From: Eubacteriales bacterium
Lineage (GTDB): Bacteria; Bacillota; Clostridia; Tissierellales; GPF-1
Assembly: GCA_030625815.1 (NCBI GenBank)
Contig: DAOUQF010000008.1
Coordinates: 1 to 64,000 of the forward strand
DNA length: 64,000 bases
Direction: 5' to 3'
A program made the translations under genes and the position numbers. The notes beneath the pieces were generated by a model. The model made no database searches and was not told the origin of the DNA. It saw nothing but the letters and a program-made list of their open reading frames with translations. This document shows positions 49,144 through 56,078 of the stretch, piece after piece (the stretch's first letter is position 1; every line of letters starts with the position of its first letter).

Positions 49144-49686
49144 ATGGATTTTATTGTACTGGATTTTGAAACGACGGGGCTTCGAAATGAAGATCAAATT
49201 ATTGAGATTGGCTATGTTTGGATTCAAAATGGAGAGAGCAAGGCGGAGCGAAGCAGCTTGATCAATCCGGGAGGCCCGATTTCTCGACGGATTACGCAGA
49301 TTACGGGAATTGATACGGAAATGGTGGCAGATGCGCCTGAAATCCATGAGGTGATTGAAGGGTTTGCCAAGTTTTTGCGGGGGAAAATAATTGTGGCTCA
49401 CAATGCTTCCTTCGATGTGCGATTTTTGAATAATGCTTTAAGGCGTGCAGGTCAGGAAGGCGTAACCGAGTATATTTGCACCATGCGGATGTTTCGGGGA
49501 TACAAACGGGAGTTGGGAATTGAAACTCCGGGAGCGAAATTGTCGGATCTTACCTCGCATTTTGGGCTACATAATGATCGCGCCCATCGGGCATTGGAAG
49601 ATGCTCAGGTCACTTCGAAGGCATTCTTGGATATGTGCGAGGTTTTGCCTTGGGAAGCGTGGGTTACAAAAAAAAGCAGATCGTAA
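49144..49686 (+). CDS. DnaQ-like 3'-5' exonuclease
   Basis: A 180-residue DEDD exonuclease. Exo I is 'FIVLDFETTGL' (Asp, Glu), Exo II is 'IIVAHNASFDVRFLNNAL' and Exo III is 'HRALEDAQVT' with the DEDDh-type histidine. Length equals a free-standing epsilon-like or PolC-type exonuclease. ATG 49144 fits the AGGAG site better than ATG 49120. Role in repair or RNA processing undetermined. Confidence 0.9.
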   Translation: MDFIVLDFETTGLRNEDQIIEIGYVWIQNGESKAERSSLINPGGPISRRITQITGIDTEMVADAPEIHEVIEGFAKFLRGKIIVAHNASFDVRFLNNALRRAGQEGVTEYICTMRMFRGYKRELGIETPGAKLSDLTSHFGLHNDRAHRALEDAQVTSKAFLDMCEVLPWEAWVTKKSRS

Positions 49687-49855
49687 AGGCAAGGACTTGA
49701 ATCTGTTTAGCAGTTCACATGATTGCGGAGTATCAAATGAAACGGGAATATTTGGACGATTAAGAGCGTTGCGTGAAATCAGGTGATGCCTGAATTTGTC
49801 AACTTCTGTGATATAATAAGGCTATGATTCGGAATGTTTCGAGAAGGGTGACGGG

Positions 49856-51145
49856 ATGAAAATCGCAATTGTTGGCGCCAAGGATTCGGTTGAAAAAGTA
49901 TATCAGATTGGACGAACCTCATATTTGGAGCATGAGTTTATTCCGTATGCGGTAGGATTATGCGATGAGTGCGAGGCGGTTTTGAATCATTGCGAAGAGA
50001 GCGCTGACGGACTGATTTTCACCGGACTTGGATTCGTGAATATTTCAAAAAAATTAAATATCCTTTCCATTCCTGTGGAGTTCATTACACGGGATGGCTC
50101 TTGCATTATCAAAACATTTTGGGATCTGCGGGATCGCGAAGTAGAGCCGAAACGAATCAGCATGGATGTTGTGGGAAGGCACTTATTCAATGATGTTTGT
50201 GAAGAGCTGGGCTTATCCTTCGAAAAATCCTATTTGTTTCCCTATAATCCGGAACAGATCGAAGCATCGTTAAAGCAAGAACATCAGAGACTGTGGGAAT
50301 CCGGCAAGATTGACCTTGCCATCACCAGTTACGGCTGGATTTATGAGCAATTGATAGAAGCGAAGATTCCGGTGGCGCGACTTGGGGTGACAGCGCCGAT
50401 TATTCGGAATTCCATTGATCGAGTCATTGCGCGTATAGAGAATCAAGAGATGAAGAAATCGCAATTGGCGGTCTTGTTGATTACCATTGAAGCAAAGCAG
50501 GATTATAACCGTTATGAATATGAAGCCCTCCGGAAACGGAATGCTTTTGAGAAGATGTTGATCGACTATCTGCCCATTATTCAAGGGACCGTAACGCAGA
50601 ATCGGGATGATCAGTATATAATTATCAGCACAAGGGGCGCCATTGAGAATGCAGCTGGCGAGGCGGCATTTTTACGGATACTATATGAGGCGGAGAATCA
50701 AAAGATTCGCCTTCACGCAGGTGTTGGGTTTGGCCACACAGCCTTCGATGCGGATTATAATGCGAGGATTGCCTTGAACAAGTCTCGTGAGGAGAAGGGG
50801 AATCGATATTTCCTTGTCGACGCGCAGAAAAGGATCTATGGTCCCGTCGGTCAACGGGAGTCGGTGTCCTATGAGAGTGCGGCAATGGGGGAAGAGATGA
50901 AAAAAGTCGCTCGACAGACTGGCCTAAGTACCACCTATGTTTCAAGAATCGTGAACCTGACAAAAAATTTGGATACCGATTATGTGGATTCAAAAAAGAT
51001 GGCGGAATTATTGATGATCACAGAGCGGTCTGCGCGCAGAATCTTGAAGAAATTGGCGGATGCCGGACATGCGGAACTGGTGACGGAATCTCAAAGAAAT
51101 GCAGTTGGACGGCCGATTCATATTTATAAGATTTTAATTCCTTGA
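49856..51145 (+). CDS. Transcriptional regulator with GGDEF-like and C-terminal HTH domains
   Basis: A 429-residue protein. Residues 1-190 form an N-terminal sensor-like domain I do not recognise. Residues 195-330 resemble a degenerate GGDEF-type domain ('RLHAGVGFGHTAFDADYNAR'), without a GGDEF signature. The C-terminus has two HTH-like stretches ('VARQTGLSTTYVSRIVNLTK', 'LLMITERSARRILKKLADAG'). It is upstream of, and codirectional with, the DUF3100/M20 operon, separated by a spacer with GTCCGAAA operators, so it is the likely regulator. Binds DNA through the C-terminus; ligand unknown. Confidence 0.7.
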   Translation: MKIAIVGAKDSVEKVYQIGRTSYLEHEFIPYAVGLCDECEAVLNHCEESADGLIFTGLGFVNISKKLNILSIPVEFITRDGSCIIKTFWDLRDREVEPKRISMDVVGRHLFNDVCEELGLSFEKSYLFPYNPEQIEASLKQEHQRLWESGKIDLAITSYGWIYEQLIEAKIPVARLGVTAPIIRNSIDRVIARIENQEMKKSQLAVLLITIEAKQDYNRYEYEALRKRNAFEKMLIDYLPIIQGTVTQNRDDQYIIISTRGAIENAAGEAAFLRILYEAENQKIRLHAGVGFGHTAFDADYNARIALNKSREEKGNRYFLVDAQKRIYGPVGQRESVSYESAAMGEEMKKVARQTGLSTTYVSRIVNLTKNLDTDYVDSKKMAELLMITERSARRILKKLADAGHAELVTESQRNAVGRPIHIYKILIP

Positions 51146-51197
51146 AAGTATTGAAATAGGGTTAGAGAAATGATAAGCTTTATTACAGAAAGGTCAT

Positions 51198-51265
51198 ATT
51201 TCGGACAAAGTCCGAAATTAAGTGTGTCCGAAAGGGGGACATCTTTCTTTTCACCAATATCGGAC
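51198..51265. promoter_or_regulatory. GTCCGAAA operator cluster
   Basis: ATTTCGGAC-AAA-GTCCGAAAT (51198-51218) is a perfect dyad with 9-bp arms. GTCCGAAA recurs at 51226-51233, 16 bp after the first right arm, and CGGAC at 51261-51265. Further GGACAT copies follow at 51237 and 51273. The cluster lies between the regulator gene at 49856 and the DUF3100 operon, and is the probable binding region of that regulator. Confidence 0.72.
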
Positions 51266-51426
51266 ATAAAAAGGACATATCCTTAAATGCCTGTAATCAA
51301 AATAGCACAATAGTAAAGAGATCTCTGTCTTTAATTGTCGAAATATTCACACAGTGAAGGTCTTTTCCCAACCGACACACGGAAAGGAGGATAATGGGAA
51401 GCACAAAATTTGAAAGGAGTCTTATG

Positions 51427-52308
51427 ATGAAAGAAAACAAACAACCGGTTGATCCGTTTACGGAAGCCACCAAGAACTCATCTGCATTATTCAAACTTTA
51501 CATCATTGTATTTATTATCGTCATTATTAGTGAACTGATTGGAATCAAAAAATTTGCGGTTGGACCGGGTTCGGTTGTACTTTTGCCTATGCTTTATGCC
51601 GTTATTATTGGCCTTGTAATTACTCCAGGTATTTTAGGGAAGTACATTCAATCGTTGAAATCTTTAGTGTCTGAAGAGGTAATGGAAATTGCAGGCATTA
51701 TGGTTATGCTCTCGTTGCTTCCTTTGGGGGTAAAATATGGAACCTTGGTGGGACCGAATATCGTCAAGGTTGTGCAAGCGGGGCCGGCGTTCTTGCTCCA
51801 AGAACTTGGCAATCTCGGAACCGTCTTTATTGGATTGCCATTGGCGATGGCGTTGGGATTGAAACGTGAAGCCATTGGCGCAACAGTGAGTATTTGTCGT
51901 GAACCGACCCTTGGAGTCATCGGCGAGCGATACGGCATCAACTCGCCGGAGGGAACCGGTGTATTGGGTACCTATATGATGGGTACTGTTTTGGGAACTA
52001 TTTTCTTTGGTTTGTTGGGTTCCTTTGCAGTGAACACGGGAATTCATCCATACGCTTTGGCGATGGCTTCCGGCATGGGCAGTGGTTCCATGATGACGGC
52101 TGCTTCTTCTTCTTTGGCTGAAACGGTGCCGGCAATGCGAGATACCATTCTTGCCTATGCGGCAACCAGTAATATGTTGACGGGTGTAACCGGACTTTAT
52201 AGTGTGGTTTTCCTTGCACTTCCATTGTCCAATTGGTTGTATAAGAAATGGGAACCAATATTTGACCGCAGAGAAAAAGCGAAAGGGAGTGTAAACGATG
52301 TTAAGTAG
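51427..52308 (+). CDS. DUF3100-family membrane protein
   Basis: A 293-residue protein with about nine hydrophobic segments. It matches the DUF3100 family as I recall it ('GPGSVVLLPMLYAVIIGLVI' near residue 43, 'ASGMGSGSMMTAASSSLAET' near 222). Its likely role is transport, but no substrate is established to my knowledge. ATG 51427 has AAAGGAG 7 nt upstream; ATGs at 51424 and 51394 are alternatives. The end overlaps the next gene by 11 bp, so the two membrane proteins are probably made in equal amounts as one complex. Confidence 0.72.
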   Translation: MKENKQPVDPFTEATKNSSALFKLYIIVFIIVIISELIGIKKFAVGPGSVVLLPMLYAVIIGLVITPGILGKYIQSLKSLVSEEVMEIAGIMVMLSLLPLGVKYGTLVGPNIVKVVQAGPAFLLQELGNLGTVFIGLPLAMALGLKREAIGATVSICREPTLGVIGERYGINSPEGTGVLGTYMMGTVLGTIFFGLLGSFAVNTGIHPYALAMASGMGSGSMMTAASSSLAETVPAMRDTILAYAATSNMLTGVTGLYSVVFLALPLSNWLYKKWEPIFDRREKAKGSVNDVK

Positions 52309-52771
52309 AACGATTAATCAATCAAAAATGATGTTGGTGATCGGAATGATGATTCTGGTGGGTCAAAAGATTTCACATCTGATTACACAGAAACCCTTGG
52401 TTCCATTGGGCCAATCTTTCCTTGGAATACTTACAGTGCTTGTTATTTGCGTAGTGGCTTTGAAATTGAAAGAGGCGTTTCCGAAAGTGAAATTCCCTGC
52501 TTTTGCATGGGCGACAATGATTGCATTGATTCTTAGTATGCCGTTTATGCCAACATCGAAATTTTTCTTGCAGTATACAGGAAGTGTTGATTTCTTGGCG
52601 ACAACGACTCCGATTCTTGCCTTTGCCGGTATTTCGGTAGGGACGAAATTGACGCAATTGAAGAAAATCAGTTGGAAGCTTGTTATTATCGCGATGGTTG
52701 TATTTATCGGAACCTATTTTGGTTCGGCTTTGGTTGCACAATTTGTCTTGAAGATGCAAGGCATCATCTAG
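52298..52771 (+). CDS. Small membrane partner of the DUF3100 protein
   Basis: A 157-residue protein with four to five hydrophobic segments ('LGILTVLVICVVALKL', 'AWATMIALILSMPFM', 'LVIIAMVVFIGTYFGSALVA'). I recognise no named family. It starts inside the end of the DUF3100 gene (ATG 52298) and is followed by a terminator-like hairpin before the amidohydrolase. The overlap and matched topology suggest a two-subunit carrier. Confidence 0.7.
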   Translation: MLSRTINQSKMMLVIGMMILVGQKISHLITQKPLVPLGQSFLGILTVLVICVVALKLKEAFPKVKFPAFAWATMIALILSMPFMPTSKFFLQYTGSVDFLATTTPILAFAGISVGTKLTQLKKISWKLVIIAMVVFIGTYFGSALVAQFVLKMQGII

Positions 52772-52810
52772 GTGATATTGGAAGTTTGAATTTAGAAAGT
52801 TGCAGTGACA

Positions 52811-52852
52811 GGGCAACCTCTCCGTTATCAGGTGATAGGTTGCTCTTTTTTT
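52811..52852 (+). terminator. Hairpin between the transporter genes and the amidohydrolase
   Basis: GGGCAACCT (52811-52819) pairs with AGGTTGCTC (52837-52845), then seven T residues. It would reduce but not necessarily abolish transcription into the M20 gene that starts 29 bp later. Confidence 0.7.
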
Positions 52853-52880
52853 GCAAAGATTGGAAAATAGGAGGTGCCCA

Positions 52881-54191
52881 ATGGAAAAGCAAGCATTGAA
52901 AGAGAAAATCTGTGGGATCATTGATTTGCACCGGAACGAAATTATTGAAGCGGGTCAATCGATTTATGATCATCCGCAACTGGGATACAAAGAAGAATAC
53001 GCAACGGAAGTTATGACAAAAGCATTTCGGCAACTGGGGTTGGAGGTCGAAGAGAATATTGCGGTAACCGGATGTCGTGCGCGAAGCAAGTCGGAAAAGG
53101 AGGGGCCACGCATTGCTGTTCTTGGGGAATTGGATGCAATTATTTGCAGCGAACACCCCGATGCAGATCCAAATACGGGTGCGATCCATGCCTGCGGCCA
53201 TAATATTCAAGCCGCGGCCATGCTGGGTGTTGCCATCGGGTTGGTAAAATCCGGTGCGATGGAAGAGCTGGATGGTGCCGTTGATTTTATGGCGGTTCCG
53301 GCAGAAGAATATGTCGAACTGGAATTTCGGGATCGTTTGCGAAAAACAGGGAAGATTCGCTATTTTGGCGGCAAGCAGGAATTGATTCATAAGGGATATT
53401 TTGACGAAGTGGATATCAGCATGATGATTCATGCTTTGAATCTGCAGGGGAAATCGATATTGACGAGCGGGAAGGGCAATGGATTCATCGGGAAAAAGGT
53501 GAAGTTCATTGGAAAGGAAGCTCATGCGGGCGGAGCGCCGCAGGATGGGATCAATGCATTGAATGCGGCTATGTTGGCATTGAATAATATCCATGCGCAA
53601 CGAGAGACCTTTCCGGAAAGCGAACGAATTCGCGTGCATCCGATCATTACAAAGGGCGGGGATATTGTAAATGTGGTTCCGGCTGATGTGCGCATGGAGC
53701 TGTATGTGCGAGGTCGAACGATTCCGGGCATTGTTAAAGCCAATGAAAAGGTGAATCGATCCTTGAAAGCGGGAGCGATGGCAATTGGCGCCGAGGTTGA
53801 AATTGAAGAAATTCCGGGATACTTGCCATTATTGACAGAGGACCACTTAGACTCGGTTTTTTACGAGAATGCCGCGGAATTGGTTGGCCGTGATGCCATC
53901 GTGACGGGCGGAGATTTTACAGGTTCTTTTGATTTTGGCGATGTATCGCATCTGATGCCGTCGTTGCATCCATTTGTCGCGGGGGTAACGGGAGATTTGC
54001 ATACCCGTGAATTTACCAATACGGATCCGGAATTGGCGTATATTGTGTCGGCGAAGGCGATGGCTATGACGATTGTGGATTTGCTCTATGGTGGAGCGGA
54101 ACAGGCGAAACAAATTATCAAAGAGTTTAAACCGAAAATGACGAAAACGGAGTATCTGGCTTATTTAGAAAGTGTTTCTGGAATGGTATAG
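52881..54191 (+). CDS. M20-family amidohydrolase (AbgB-like)
   Basis: A 436-residue metal-dependent aminoacylase/carboxypeptidase-like enzyme. Near residue 100, 'IHACGHNIQAAAMLGVAIGL' holds the first metal-site residues in the AbgB-type form. 'VPAEEY' near 150 holds the catalytic glutamates, and 'GKEAHAGGAPQDGINALNAA' near 215 is the dimerisation/lid region. It hydrolyses N-acyl- or aminobenzoyl-type amide bonds to free amino acids. ATG 52881 follows AGGAGG. With the DUF3100 pair it forms an apparent uptake and hydrolysis module. Substrate unknown. Confidence 0.85.
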   Translation: MEKQALKEKICGIIDLHRNEIIEAGQSIYDHPQLGYKEEYATEVMTKAFRQLGLEVEENIAVTGCRARSKSEKEGPRIAVLGELDAIICSEHPDADPNTGAIHACGHNIQAAAMLGVAIGLVKSGAMEELDGAVDFMAVPAEEYVELEFRDRLRKTGKIRYFGGKQELIHKGYFDEVDISMMIHALNLQGKSILTSGKGNGFIGKKVKFIGKEAHAGGAPQDGINALNAAMLALNNIHAQRETFPESERIRVHPIITKGGDIVNVVPADVRMELYVRGRTIPGIVKANEKVNRSLKAGAMAIGAEVEIEEIPGYLPLLTEDHLDSVFYENAAELVGRDAIVTGGDFTGSFDFGDVSHLMPSLHPFVAGVTGDLHTREFTNTDPELAYIVSAKAMAMTIVDLLYGGAEQAKQIIKEFKPKMTKTEYLAYLESVSGMV

Positions 54192-54194
54192 GAC

Positions 54195-54232
54195 AAAAAA
54201 TCACCCGATCTATTATGATCGGGTGATTTTTT
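54195..54232. terminator. Bidirectional terminator
   Basis: A 16-bp perfect stem AAAAAATCACCCGATC (54195-54210) with 54217-54232 and a 6-nt loop. It ends the amidohydrolase and the convergent HD gene. Confidence 0.9.
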
Positions 54233-54795
54233 TATCCCAATAAACTGGTTCCTTCTGCTTGCAGCATCGCTTCATGTTCTTTTAAGCCGCTTACAATGGT
54301 GTCGATGTGGTCAGCAAATTCGATGTTCATCTCTTCCATGGAGTTGATCAGTTCTTCGCGATTAACCGCACGGGCGAAGGCTTTGTCCTTCATTTTTTTC
54401 TTCACGGATTTTGCTTTCAAGCCTTCGAGTTTTGTGGGACGCATCAGCGCGACTGCGATAACAAAGCTTGCCATCTCATCAACAGCATGCAGGGCTTTTC
54501 GTTCCATCAAATCGCGCGGAACATCGGGATTCAAGCCATGAGACAAAATCGTATCAATAAAGATTGGATCAAAATCGGTGTCCGCCAGCAATTCGGGTGC
54601 CTTGGCGGGATGCACTTCCGGGTATTCCTCGAAATCGATGTCATGAAGCAAGCCCAGCATGCCCCATCGATTTTCATCCTCGCCGAATTTTTTTGCATAG
54701 GCGATCATGGCGGCTTCCACCGCAAGCGAGTGGCGGTAAATTCGGTCCGTTTTCACATGTTTTTTCAAAAGTGCGACTGCTTCTTTTCGATTCAT
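54232..54795 (-). CDS. HD-domain hydrolase
   Basis: A 187-residue HD-superfamily phosphohydrolase. 'YRHSLAVEAAMIAYAKKFGE' gives the first histidine and 'LGLLHDIDFEEYPEVH' the His-Asp pair, with 'DTILSHGLNPDVPRDLMER' and 'ALHAVDEMASFVIAVALM' providing later ligands. Probably acts on a nucleotide or phosphate ester. AGGAGGGG precedes the ATG at 54795. Substrate unknown. The stretch 54796-54983 has a leftward TATAAT-like box but no other gene. Confidence 0.88.
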   Translation of the reverse strand: MNRKEAVALLKKHVKTDRIYRHSLAVEAAMIAYAKKFGEDENRWGMLGLLHDIDFEEYPEVHPAKAPELLADTDFDPIFIDTILSHGLNPDVPRDLMERKALHAVDEMASFVIAVALMRPTKLEGLKAKSVKKKMKDKAFARAVNREELINSMEEMNIEFADHIDTIVSGLKEHEAMLQAEGTSLLG

Positions 54796-55043: not shown

Positions 55044-56078
55044 TTATGATAACTCAAGTTTCAAATCATTCTGTTTGATCGCGCTGGTATTTCGTAAAAA
55101 TTTCGCGATGAGCAGCGTAAGGGTGATCGGTAAAACAAAGTGAAGCAAAAGGATGGAACCATAGAGGTCGACTCCGCCCCTTCCAACGGCTTCCATGGCT
55201 TCGATGGTGCCGAATTGTCCGACCAATCCACTCGTACCCATGCCGGATCCGATGGGGGTGTTTTCCATTTTGAAGATCGTTGTGGAAATCGGACCCAAGA
55301 TCGCCGAGGCAATAATGGATGGAATCCAGATTTTCCAGTTTCGAACGATATTGGGTATCTGCAGCATGGAGGTTCCCAAGCCCTGGGCGAAGATTCCGTT
55401 CCAGCCGTTTTCCTGAAAGCCGATCACCGCAAACCCAACCATCTGGCAGCAGCATCCGACTGTAGCGGCACCGGCGGCTAGTCCGTTGAGTCCCAGCATA
55501 ATGCCGATGGCCGCGCTGCTGATGGGAAGGGTCAGGGCGATGCCCATTAAGACGGAGATGAGGATGCCCATGGGGATGGGCTGTAATTCTGTGGCATAGA
55601 CAATCATTGCTCCAAAACTTGTCATAAAGGCGTTGATCGCGGGACCAACCAGGGTTCCGATAAGGGAACCGACAAGAATAGTCACCGATGGGGTGATGAT
55701 AATATCCAGTTTGGTTTCTTTTGAAATCAATTTTCCACATTCTGTACCCACAAGGCTGGCAAGAAAAGCGCCAACAGGGCCACCTAAGGCGGCGCCTGCT
55801 GCACCGGGGATAATGGATGCGAAGAGCACAAGGGGCGGCGCCTGAAGTCCATAAGCGACGGCAACTGCGATGGCAGGTCCGGTCATGGCTTTTGCCAAGG
55901 GCCAAAGGGTTTCGGATAAAAAAGGAATTCCCAACTTGATCCCGATCATATTCAGGATGCTGCCCACGATCAGAGAGGCAAAGAGTCCGTATGCCATAAA
56001 TCCGAGGGCATCGATCAAATACCGTTTTACACTGATTTCCACGTTCTTTTTGATTAAAAAAGCTTTTAATTTTTCCAA
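55044..56078 (-). CDS. Stand-alone PTS IIC-like membrane protein (PTS_EIIC_2 type)
   Basis: A 344-residue membrane protein with about ten hydrophobic segments. It has the glycine- and alanine-rich pattern of PTS_EIIC_2 proteins ('MAYGLFASLIVGSILNMIGI', 'SIIPGAAGAALGGPVGAFLA', 'SGMGTSGLVGQFGTIEAM'). No IIA, IIB or kinase domain is fused or adjacent, so it may be a solute carrier that does not phosphorylate its substrate. Substrate unknown. Confidence 0.8.
   Translation of the reverse strand: MEKLKAFLIKKNVEISVKRYLIDALGFMAYGLFASLIVGSILNMIGIKLGIPFLSETLWPLAKAMTGPAIAVAVAYGLQAPPLVLFASIIPGAAGAALGGPVGAFLASLVGTECGKLISKETKLDIIITPSVTILVGSLIGTLVGPAINAFMTSFGAMIVYATELQPIPMGILISVLMGIALTLPISSAAIGIMLGLNGLAAGAATVGCCCQMVGFAVIGFQENGWNGIFAQGLGTSMLQIPNIVRNWKIWIPSIIASAILGPISTTIFKMENTPIGSGMGTSGLVGQFGTIEAMEAVGRGGVDLYGSILLLHFVLPITLTLLIAKFLRNTSAIKQNDLKLELS

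Follow-up and report, generated by a model that had tools for sequence, protein, structure and literature searches.

A DUF3100 protein and its small membrane partner as a predicted two-gene carrier linked to M20-type deacylases

The DNA analysed here, a 64,000-nucleotide stretch of a Eubacteriales bacterium (contig DAOUQF010000008.1, positions 1 to 64,000; hereafter the window), contains a gene for a DUF3100 membrane protein, which Pfam labels a protein of unknown function. Examination of the open reading frames (ORFs) of the window confirmed a group of four genes in the order regulator, DUF3100, small membrane protein and M20 amidohydrolase, all on the plus strand (Table 1). An earlier note on this DNA had placed these genes correctly, and the 11-bp overlap it described between the DUF3100 and small-protein genes was exact (52298-52308). 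The DUF3100 protein matched PF11299 at 322.7 bits against a cut-off of 27, with positions 1-234 of the 235 in the profile covered. The start of its gene is ambiguous (51394 or about 51424), since an alternative ATG near 51424 is preceded by a separate Shine-Dalgarno-like site. For the M20 gene, the ATG at 52881 is likelier than the listed TTG at 52851 because GGAGGT precedes it.

Table 1. Features of the DUF3100 locus in the window
Feature	Position	Strand	Description
Regulator	49856..51145	+	429 aa; PrpR_N-like sensor domain, GGDEF-like middle domain, C-terminal winged helix-turn-helix
Candidate operator, four TTTCGGACA-type half-sites	51198..51266	.	0-1 mismatch each; includes palindrome 51198-51218
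DUF3100 membrane protein, larger subunit of predicted two-gene carrier	51394..52308	+	304 aa; PF11299 E=1.6e-96
Small membrane partner, second subunit of predicted carrier	52298..52771	+	157 aa; downstream or fused in 144/145 loci
Hairpin and T run, terminator- or attenuator-like, between partner and M20 gene	52810..52852	+	Minimum free energy -25.2 kcal/mol
M20 amidohydrolase	52881..54191	+	436-aa form; TIGR01891 match; nearest solved relatives HmrA, Xaa-Arg dipeptidase

We are highly confident that DUF3100 and the small protein are one secondary transporter with the elevator fold of CitS, ASBT and NapA, split into two genes in most loci and fused in some. Profiles made from the window family and its relatives were run on 145 non-redundant loci drawn from genomes, plasmids and even samples. 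This set consisted of 150 loci over 5 kb minus the duplicates L066, L130, L176, L179 and L188, and the window itself was not part of it. Loci left out as short were L001-L030, L035, L054, L104 and L192, and L133-L158 were short copies of re-sampled places. Two of the contributing sets, the best 80 genome loci among the matches listed and the plasmid matches, are biased to close matches. DUF3100 and the partner occurred together in 144 of the 145 loci, and the exception, L105, lies at a contig end that cuts through the partner gene. The partner was a separate downstream gene on the same strand in 127 loci (median gap -1 nt), and 118 of these pairs had a gap of -60 to 150 nt; the nine outside that range mostly reflected over-long ORF starts. 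The other 17 loci encode both proteins in one ORF. Ten of these fusions come from the Pseudomonadota sample and six from plasmids, of which one is actinobacterial; the window's phylum contributes L198 (the full set being L163, L166-L174, L198 and plasmid loci L116, L117, L122 and L124-L126). The DUF3100 match was in two pieces in L205 (G345), L206 (G117) and L207 (G332), which suggests interrupted copies or sequencing errors.

A model of the natural fusion L198, built from 99 aligned rows, had a predicted local distance difference test score (pLDDT) of 91.3 and a predicted template modelling score (pTM) of 0.88. When the Foldseek candidates for this model were re-aligned, CitS came first (Z 14.7, 4.2 A, 297 residues across both halves, 15% identity), and SbtA, NapA, NhaP and homologues of the ASBT/bile-acid symporter came next. 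The 50 rows shown from this re-alignment comprised CitS, SbtA, NapA, NhaP, ASBT/bile-acid symporter, SOS1, NHA2, SLC9C1, NhaA and NHE9 at Z 10.6-14.7, values that helical models can reach through a common helix arrangement. The whole-chain CPA/BART-type elevator fold is a prediction for the fusion L198 rather than for the window's own pair. An alignment of 27 DUF3100 members had 23 invariant columns, and besides PF11299 these members gave one marginal Pfam match in one member. A search of PDB sequences with the DUF3100 profile gave no match to E=0.1, and NCBIfam held nothing convincing for the regulator, DUF3100 or the partner. The window partner matched Lys_export (PF03956) at E=0.016 and 15.1 bits, below the cut-off of 23.8; 16 of 25 aligned partners matched this family at E<=0.05 (best 5.9e-5), and two of the 25 weakly matched 2HCT (best E=0.0029).

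Co-occurrence across genomes, which the earlier note had proposed as a check on its grouping of DUF3100, the small partner and M20, supported that grouping, as the pair and a deacylase recur in distant phyla. The DUF3100-partner-M20 arrangement was found in Clostridia, Spirochaetes, Fusobacteria, Pseudomonadota and haloarchaea, and the M20 gene could lie on either side of the pair. A deacylase, usually M20 and rarely M14, was present within 4 kb in 124 of the 144 loci scored; the 145th, L033, stood outside this scoring and has an M20A gene. In the zone at 4-9 kb, an M20 gene reached the same score cut-off in 1 of 145 loci. The even genome samples gave 35/48 loci with a deacylase (22/29 in the window's phylum, 11/16 in Pseudomonadota and 2/3 in Halobacteria), or 24/31, 11/16 and 3/5, respectively, with dropped loci restored, L192 included. 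The corresponding counts were 73/77 in the best-match genome set and 16/19 on plasmids. Four deacylase types were recognised: M20A, which is the window type, HipO-like M20b, DapE/ArgE-like M20 in haloarchaea, and an M14 enzyme of Sulfitobacter, closest to DoeB but scoring under its NCBIfam cut-off. On a DUF3100 tree of 142 of the 145 loci (three short pieces excluded; FastTree only), the deacylase state, scored as one of the four types or none, changed at least 24 times. The module has therefore been re-paired repeatedly with different deacylases, which argues for a functional link rather than an inherited neighbourhood.

Some loci carried other enzymes near the pair. In the haloarchaeal loci L055, L075 and L081, a DgcN-like gene lay near DUF3100 and the usual M20A was absent (L075 was scored and fell below the cut-off); L075 and L081 also carried SHMT-like genes (SHMT, serine hydroxymethyltransferase). 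An ATZ/TRZ-type amidohydrolase occupied the M20 position after DUF3100 and the partner in L191, L194 and L202.

The M20 enzyme of the window matched TIGR01891 ("amidohydrolase") at 185.3 bits against a cut-off of 153.75. Its closest solved relatives were HmrA (E=6.5e-33) and Xaa-Arg dipeptidase (PM20D2; E=1.4e-31), and the match to the aminobenzoyl-glutamate utilization protein 3io1, whose subunit is not named, was much weaker (E=4.1e-11). The description of this enzyme as AbgB-like in the earlier note is a loose label in view of the two closer relatives. Residues C105, H107, E142, E143, H184 and H374 of the 436-aa form, which in the M20 family serve as metal ligands or catalytic residues, were conserved to at least 97% across an alignment of 81 M20A proteins.

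The genes around the module at loci other than that of the window offered indications of the substrate. Within 5 kb in the 145 loci, with names taken from NCBIfam or assigned by eye, we counted LysR regulators (29), a hydroxyisobutyrate-type dehydrogenase (19), aldehyde dehydrogenase (18), SHMT (8), RidA (7), a BhcC-like relative of 3-hydroxyaspartate aldolase (6), nitrilase (6), a YheO-like regulator (6), aspartate dehydrogenase (4), ATZ/TRZ-type amidohydrolase (4), threonine dehydrogenase (TDH; 3), KBL-type glycine C-acetyltransferase (3, one of which, in L129, is annotated only as an aminotransferase) and serine ammonia-lyase (3). In Sulfitobacter, a Thr/Ser dehydratase and RidA directly precede DUF3100. 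In Psychrobacter, TDH and KBL follow DUF3100, and in L049 of the window's phylum (the same place as L188) they follow the M20 gene. At three enterobacterial plasmid copies, the adjacent LysR gene carries the annotation TdcA. Operon mates chosen by position were also tallied by Pfam family. Of 114 such neighbours, 88 entered this tally after inspection by eye had removed 26 (spurious ORFs, duplicates and SMC-like ORFs of haloarchaea); two starts were reset to the annotated positions. Among the first 25 of its 82 families, the most frequent were hydroxyisobutyrate-type dehydrogenase (7), LysR (7), aldehyde dehydrogenase (5), RidA (5), class I/II aminotransferase (4), the BhcC-like domain pair (4), SHMT (3), nitrilase (3) and Amidohydro_1 (3), and aspartate dehydrogenase (2) was also present. 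The recurring neighbours assigned by eye in the 145 loci also included PfkB kinases (5), MATE-type proteins (5) and lineage-bound chromosomal genes. An adenine-deaminase gene, again named by eye, was considered as a linked function and rejected: it lay within 5 kb in 4 of 145 loci and in both orientations, and was treated as chromosomal neighbourhood.

The substrate feature shared by the Ser/Thr-type enzymes is a beta-hydroxy amino acid. At least one of SHMT, serine ammonia-lyase, Thr/Ser dehydratase, TDH/KBL or the BhcC-like gene was present in 23 of the 142 loci on the tree, with at least 14 changes; scored separately, SHMT needed 6 changes and the hydroxyisobutyrate-type dehydrogenase 8. 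In the part of PMC2963168 available to us, D-phenylserine dehydrogenase is reported as 24% identical to 3-hydroxyisobutyrate dehydrogenases and as yielding 2-aminoacetophenone and CO2. A distant relative of the 3-hydroxyisobutyrate dehydrogenases can thus oxidise the beta-hydroxyl of an amino acid. The operon described in that part of the paper has a major facilitator superfamily carrier, and no DUF3100 gene is named in it. Overall, we infer that a Ser/Thr-type amino acid is a testable lead for the substrate.

The best explanation as a whole, which we hold with moderate confidence, is that the two-gene carrier imports an N-acyl amino acid or peptide-like amide which the M20 enzyme deacylates inside the cell, the amino acid being perhaps of the Ser/Thr type. 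By this mechanism, the DUF3100-partner carrier would import an N-acylated amino acid or short peptide-like amide, the cytoplasmic M20 hydrolase would split it into a free amino acid and an acid, and the released beta-hydroxy amino acid (Ser, Thr or a close relative) would be broken down by lineage-specific neighbouring enzymes. Import of such an amide by DUF3100 and its partner, with M20 cleavage in the cytoplasm, is probable. That the released amino acid is often of the beta-hydroxy kind in the family at large is a nearly balanced call that we place just on the doubtful side. For the window locus, which has no such enzyme beside it, we regard the same statement as decidedly doubtful. More tentatively than for the family-wide statement, we suggest that DUF3100 and its partner may found a family of elevator importers with two subunits, one that is dedicated to N-acylated beta-hydroxy amino acids (N-acyl-serine, N-acyl-threonine and relatives) and has spread across bacteria, haloarchaea and plasmids with interchangeable deacylases and catabolic enzymes. 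We know of no dedicated uptake system for N-acylated beta-hydroxy amino acids.

Several observations weigh against this interpretation. Foldseek alone, run on the L198 model, gave a mixed list and no match below E=6.8e-3, so that the elevator-fold assignment rests on the second aligner and on the uniform kind of carrier in its rows. There was no deacylase within 4 kb in 20 of the 144 scored loci. None of the scored mates was present in 101 of 142 loci, including the nearest relative of the window locus (L087, with a DUF3100 match 92% identical to that of the window), or at the window locus itself. In 18 loci the hydroxyisobutyrate-type dehydrogenase, whose connection to Ser/Thr is a presumed one, was the sole scored mate. 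The BhcC-like, hydroxyisobutyrate-type, dehydratase, RidA, DoeB-like and DgcN-like proteins fell below NCBIfam cut-offs and have superfamily-level names. In the Pfam tally, class I/II aminotransferase domains (4/88) equalled the BhcC-like gene. Serine ammonia-lyase and TDH were not enriched within 4 kb relative to 4-9 kb (3 versus 3 for each; two of the distal serine ammonia-lyase genes, in L186 and L126, start at 4.2-4.4 kb), and the near-versus-far count itself favours the near zone because the reference enzymes were picked from near genes.

Alternatively, the pair could import other or broader amides, such as N-acylglycines (e.g., hippurate), acetylated amino acids generally, or dipeptides, with the Ser/Thr enzymes limited to certain lineages. 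The proximity of the window M20 to HmrA and Xaa-Arg dipeptidase, the several deacylase types that serve the module and the many loci without scored mates are all consistent with a broader range, as is the aspartate dehydrogenase and nitrilase that accompany the BhcC-like gene in several loci. In addition, SHMT, the BhcC-like aldolase and KBL also handle glycine. However, serine ammonia-lyase, Thr/Ser dehydratase and threonine dehydrogenase do not use glycine, and the amino-acid enzymes among the tally families shown were mainly of the beta-hydroxy kind, with the aminotransferases and aspartate dehydrogenase as the exceptions. We consider this broader range unlikely.

A second alternative, salvage of threonylcarbamoyl-adenosine or its base from RNA turnover, with threonine freed from its carbamoyl link, arises from individual loci. 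In L126, serine ammonia-lyase and M20 flank a Sua5-type gene, and two Bartonella plasmid copies adjoin genes of pseudouridine catabolism. Both hints come from single lineages, however, and no Sua5 cluster was recognised among the neighbour clusters of at least three loci; we rejected such salvage as a general role and consider it extremely improbable. In the Bartonella plasmid loci (L118 and L132), the module stands beside a pseudouridine-phosphate glycosidase and a PfkB kinase, and L132 also has a nucleoside transporter.

The direction of transport, the substrate and the driving ion are predictions. Import agrees with the catabolic mates, with the finding that 37 of 82 putative operons consist of module genes alone, and with the operons of AbgT-type and M20 genes that occur beside the same regulator family. 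On the opposite side, the partner is closer to the lysine exporter LysO than to any importer, the operon of L090 also holds Opp-type ATP-binding cassette (ABC) genes, recognised by eye, an amino-acid ABC transporter (an importer by annotation) lies upstream in L127, and ABC ATPase genes, also named by eye, were within 5 kb in 16 of the 145 loci. The LysO likeness of the partners and the ABC genes of L090 and L127 would suit an exporter, in which case M20 would free an amino acid from imported peptides, and DUF3100 and its partner would expel an excess or harmful derivative. An exporter is nevertheless improbable, since the catabolic enzymes at linked positions would use up the product instead of letting it be wasted, the module-only operons include no further transporter, and CitS, a symporter for citrate, heads the fold matches over the whole chain.

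Control of the DUF3100 module by the upstream regulator gene is presumed. The regulator gave no Pfam or NCBIfam match above cut-off, and no sigma-54 domain was among its Pfam matches. Its AlphaFold2 (AF2) model (mean pLDDT 82, pTM 0.53) resembled the PrpR sensor structures 2pju (E=1.4e-7) and 2q5c (E=2.7e-7) and also 3i5a (WpsR; E=6.4e-8) in Foldseek, yet the protein had no Pfam PrpR_N match to E=1. The C-terminal winged helix was supported by weak profile matches. The regulator family was present in 29 of 398 genomes of the window's phylum. The earlier note had called the regulator dedicated, which did not hold: none of the 20 family places examined among the 34 matches listed was beside DUF3100, an M20 gene was within five genes in 12 of the 20, and an AbgT-type gene was nearby in 8 (Pfam-checked for one member). 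A DUF3100-specific regulator was therefore rejected, and the family was within 5 kb in only 9 of the 145 DUF3100 loci. It seems to be a local regulator that serves hydrolase operons at large and not DUF3100 specifically, and the family could be a general amide-sensing regulator. In L241-L259, regulators of this family, with PrpR_N-like, GGDEF-like and winged-helix regions, stand beside AbgT-type and paired M20 genes.

Upstream of DUF3100, TTTCGGACA-type half-sites were found at 51199 (+), 51209 (-), 51225 (-) and 51258 (+). We treat this cluster as a candidate operator only. The palindrome at 51198-51218 occurred at one place in the 3.2 Mb genome when up to two mismatches were allowed, and a backward-read control also occurred once per strand. 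In L087, only the 51258 half-site and the trailing GGACA aligned. Across the window, TTTCGGACA with one mismatch was not enriched (23 found versus 20.6 expected), and only its clustering upstream of DUF3100 stood out. The hairpin between the partner and M20 genes had a z of -2.2, and 6 of 200 shuffles folded equally well; its counterpart in L087 had a z of -4.9, with bases that differ in part from those of the window in the alignment. As the hairpin and T run separate M20 from the partner gene, the hydrolase may be expressed at a different level. No Rfam family reached its gathering score over 49500-54500. Beyond the four genes lie a small HD-domain protein (54232-54795) and, adjoining it, a PTS_EIIC_2 membrane protein on the minus strand (55044-56078; PF13303, E=4.8e-91); EIIA/EIIB families were not among the Pfam matches of the seven window proteins scanned.

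The distribution of DUF3100 was patchy, with the family present in 29/398 genomes of the window's phylum, 17/398 of Pseudomonadota and 6/145 of Halobacteria (each count includes the centre genome of its sample). Among 72,556 plasmid records, 70 carried it. Of 5,426 E. coli genomes, 8 had a module with at least 99% identity to the plasmid copy from E. coli, in all eight on plasmids. Such a distribution is what an accessory nutrient module exchanged between genomes would show. In the open-access literature searched, no paper contained DUF3100 or PF11299, and none described a DUF3100 module as judged by titles and the openings of abstracts. Through the linkage reported here, DUF3100 becomes half of a predicted carrier for which the class of substrate can be tested. 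If the proposal is correct, the gene set of the genomes counted above would receive an annotation, and the elevator carriers would gain a member encoded by two genes.

Among known systems, Xaa-Arg dipeptidase and HmrA are the closest solved relatives of the window M20 enzyme, and we know of no link between either and a dedicated carrier. CitS, a sodium/citrate symporter of the 2HCT family, is the best structural match of the DUF3100-partner fusion, and differs from it in having low identity, in being a single chain and in carrying citrate. LysO (Lys_export) and LrgA/LrgB carriers exist either as a pair of short proteins or as a single fused chain, according to the part of PMC8396727 available to us, where a word search of the text did not find DUF3100 named. 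The split and fused forms of these carriers resemble those of DUF3100 and its weakly Lys_export-like partner; they differ in that the window partner lies below the Lys_export cut-off and DUF3100 itself matches PF11299.

The remaining comparison is with AbgT-AbgA-AbgB of E. coli, and it raises a further alternative, namely that the module takes up p-aminobenzoyl-glutamate, a product of folate breakdown, in the manner of that system. The occurrence of the same regulator family beside AbgT-type and M20 operons and the distant homology of the window M20 to 3io1 point in this direction. The known AbgAB hydrolase has two subunits, however, whereas the window operon has one M20 gene; HmrA and Xaa-Arg dipeptidase are closer to this enzyme, no folate family was among the 25 tally families shown, and the neighbours at other loci indicate Ser/Thr-type amino acids rather than aminobenzoyl-glutamate. 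We consider uptake of p-aminobenzoyl-glutamate very improbable and retain the import and cleavage of an N-acyl amino acid or peptide-like amide as the preferred interpretation. The module also differs in its carrier, as two proteins would form it and neither DUF3100 nor the partner had a Pfam match to AbgT (PF03806), nor was there an AbgT match elsewhere in the window operon. The likeness lies in the arrangement: in AbgT-AbgA-AbgB, as in the DUF3100 module, a carrier and M20 hydrolases are encoded in one operon and an N-acyl amino acid is taken up and cleaved, and AbgT-type and M20 genes share loci near relatives of the window's regulator.

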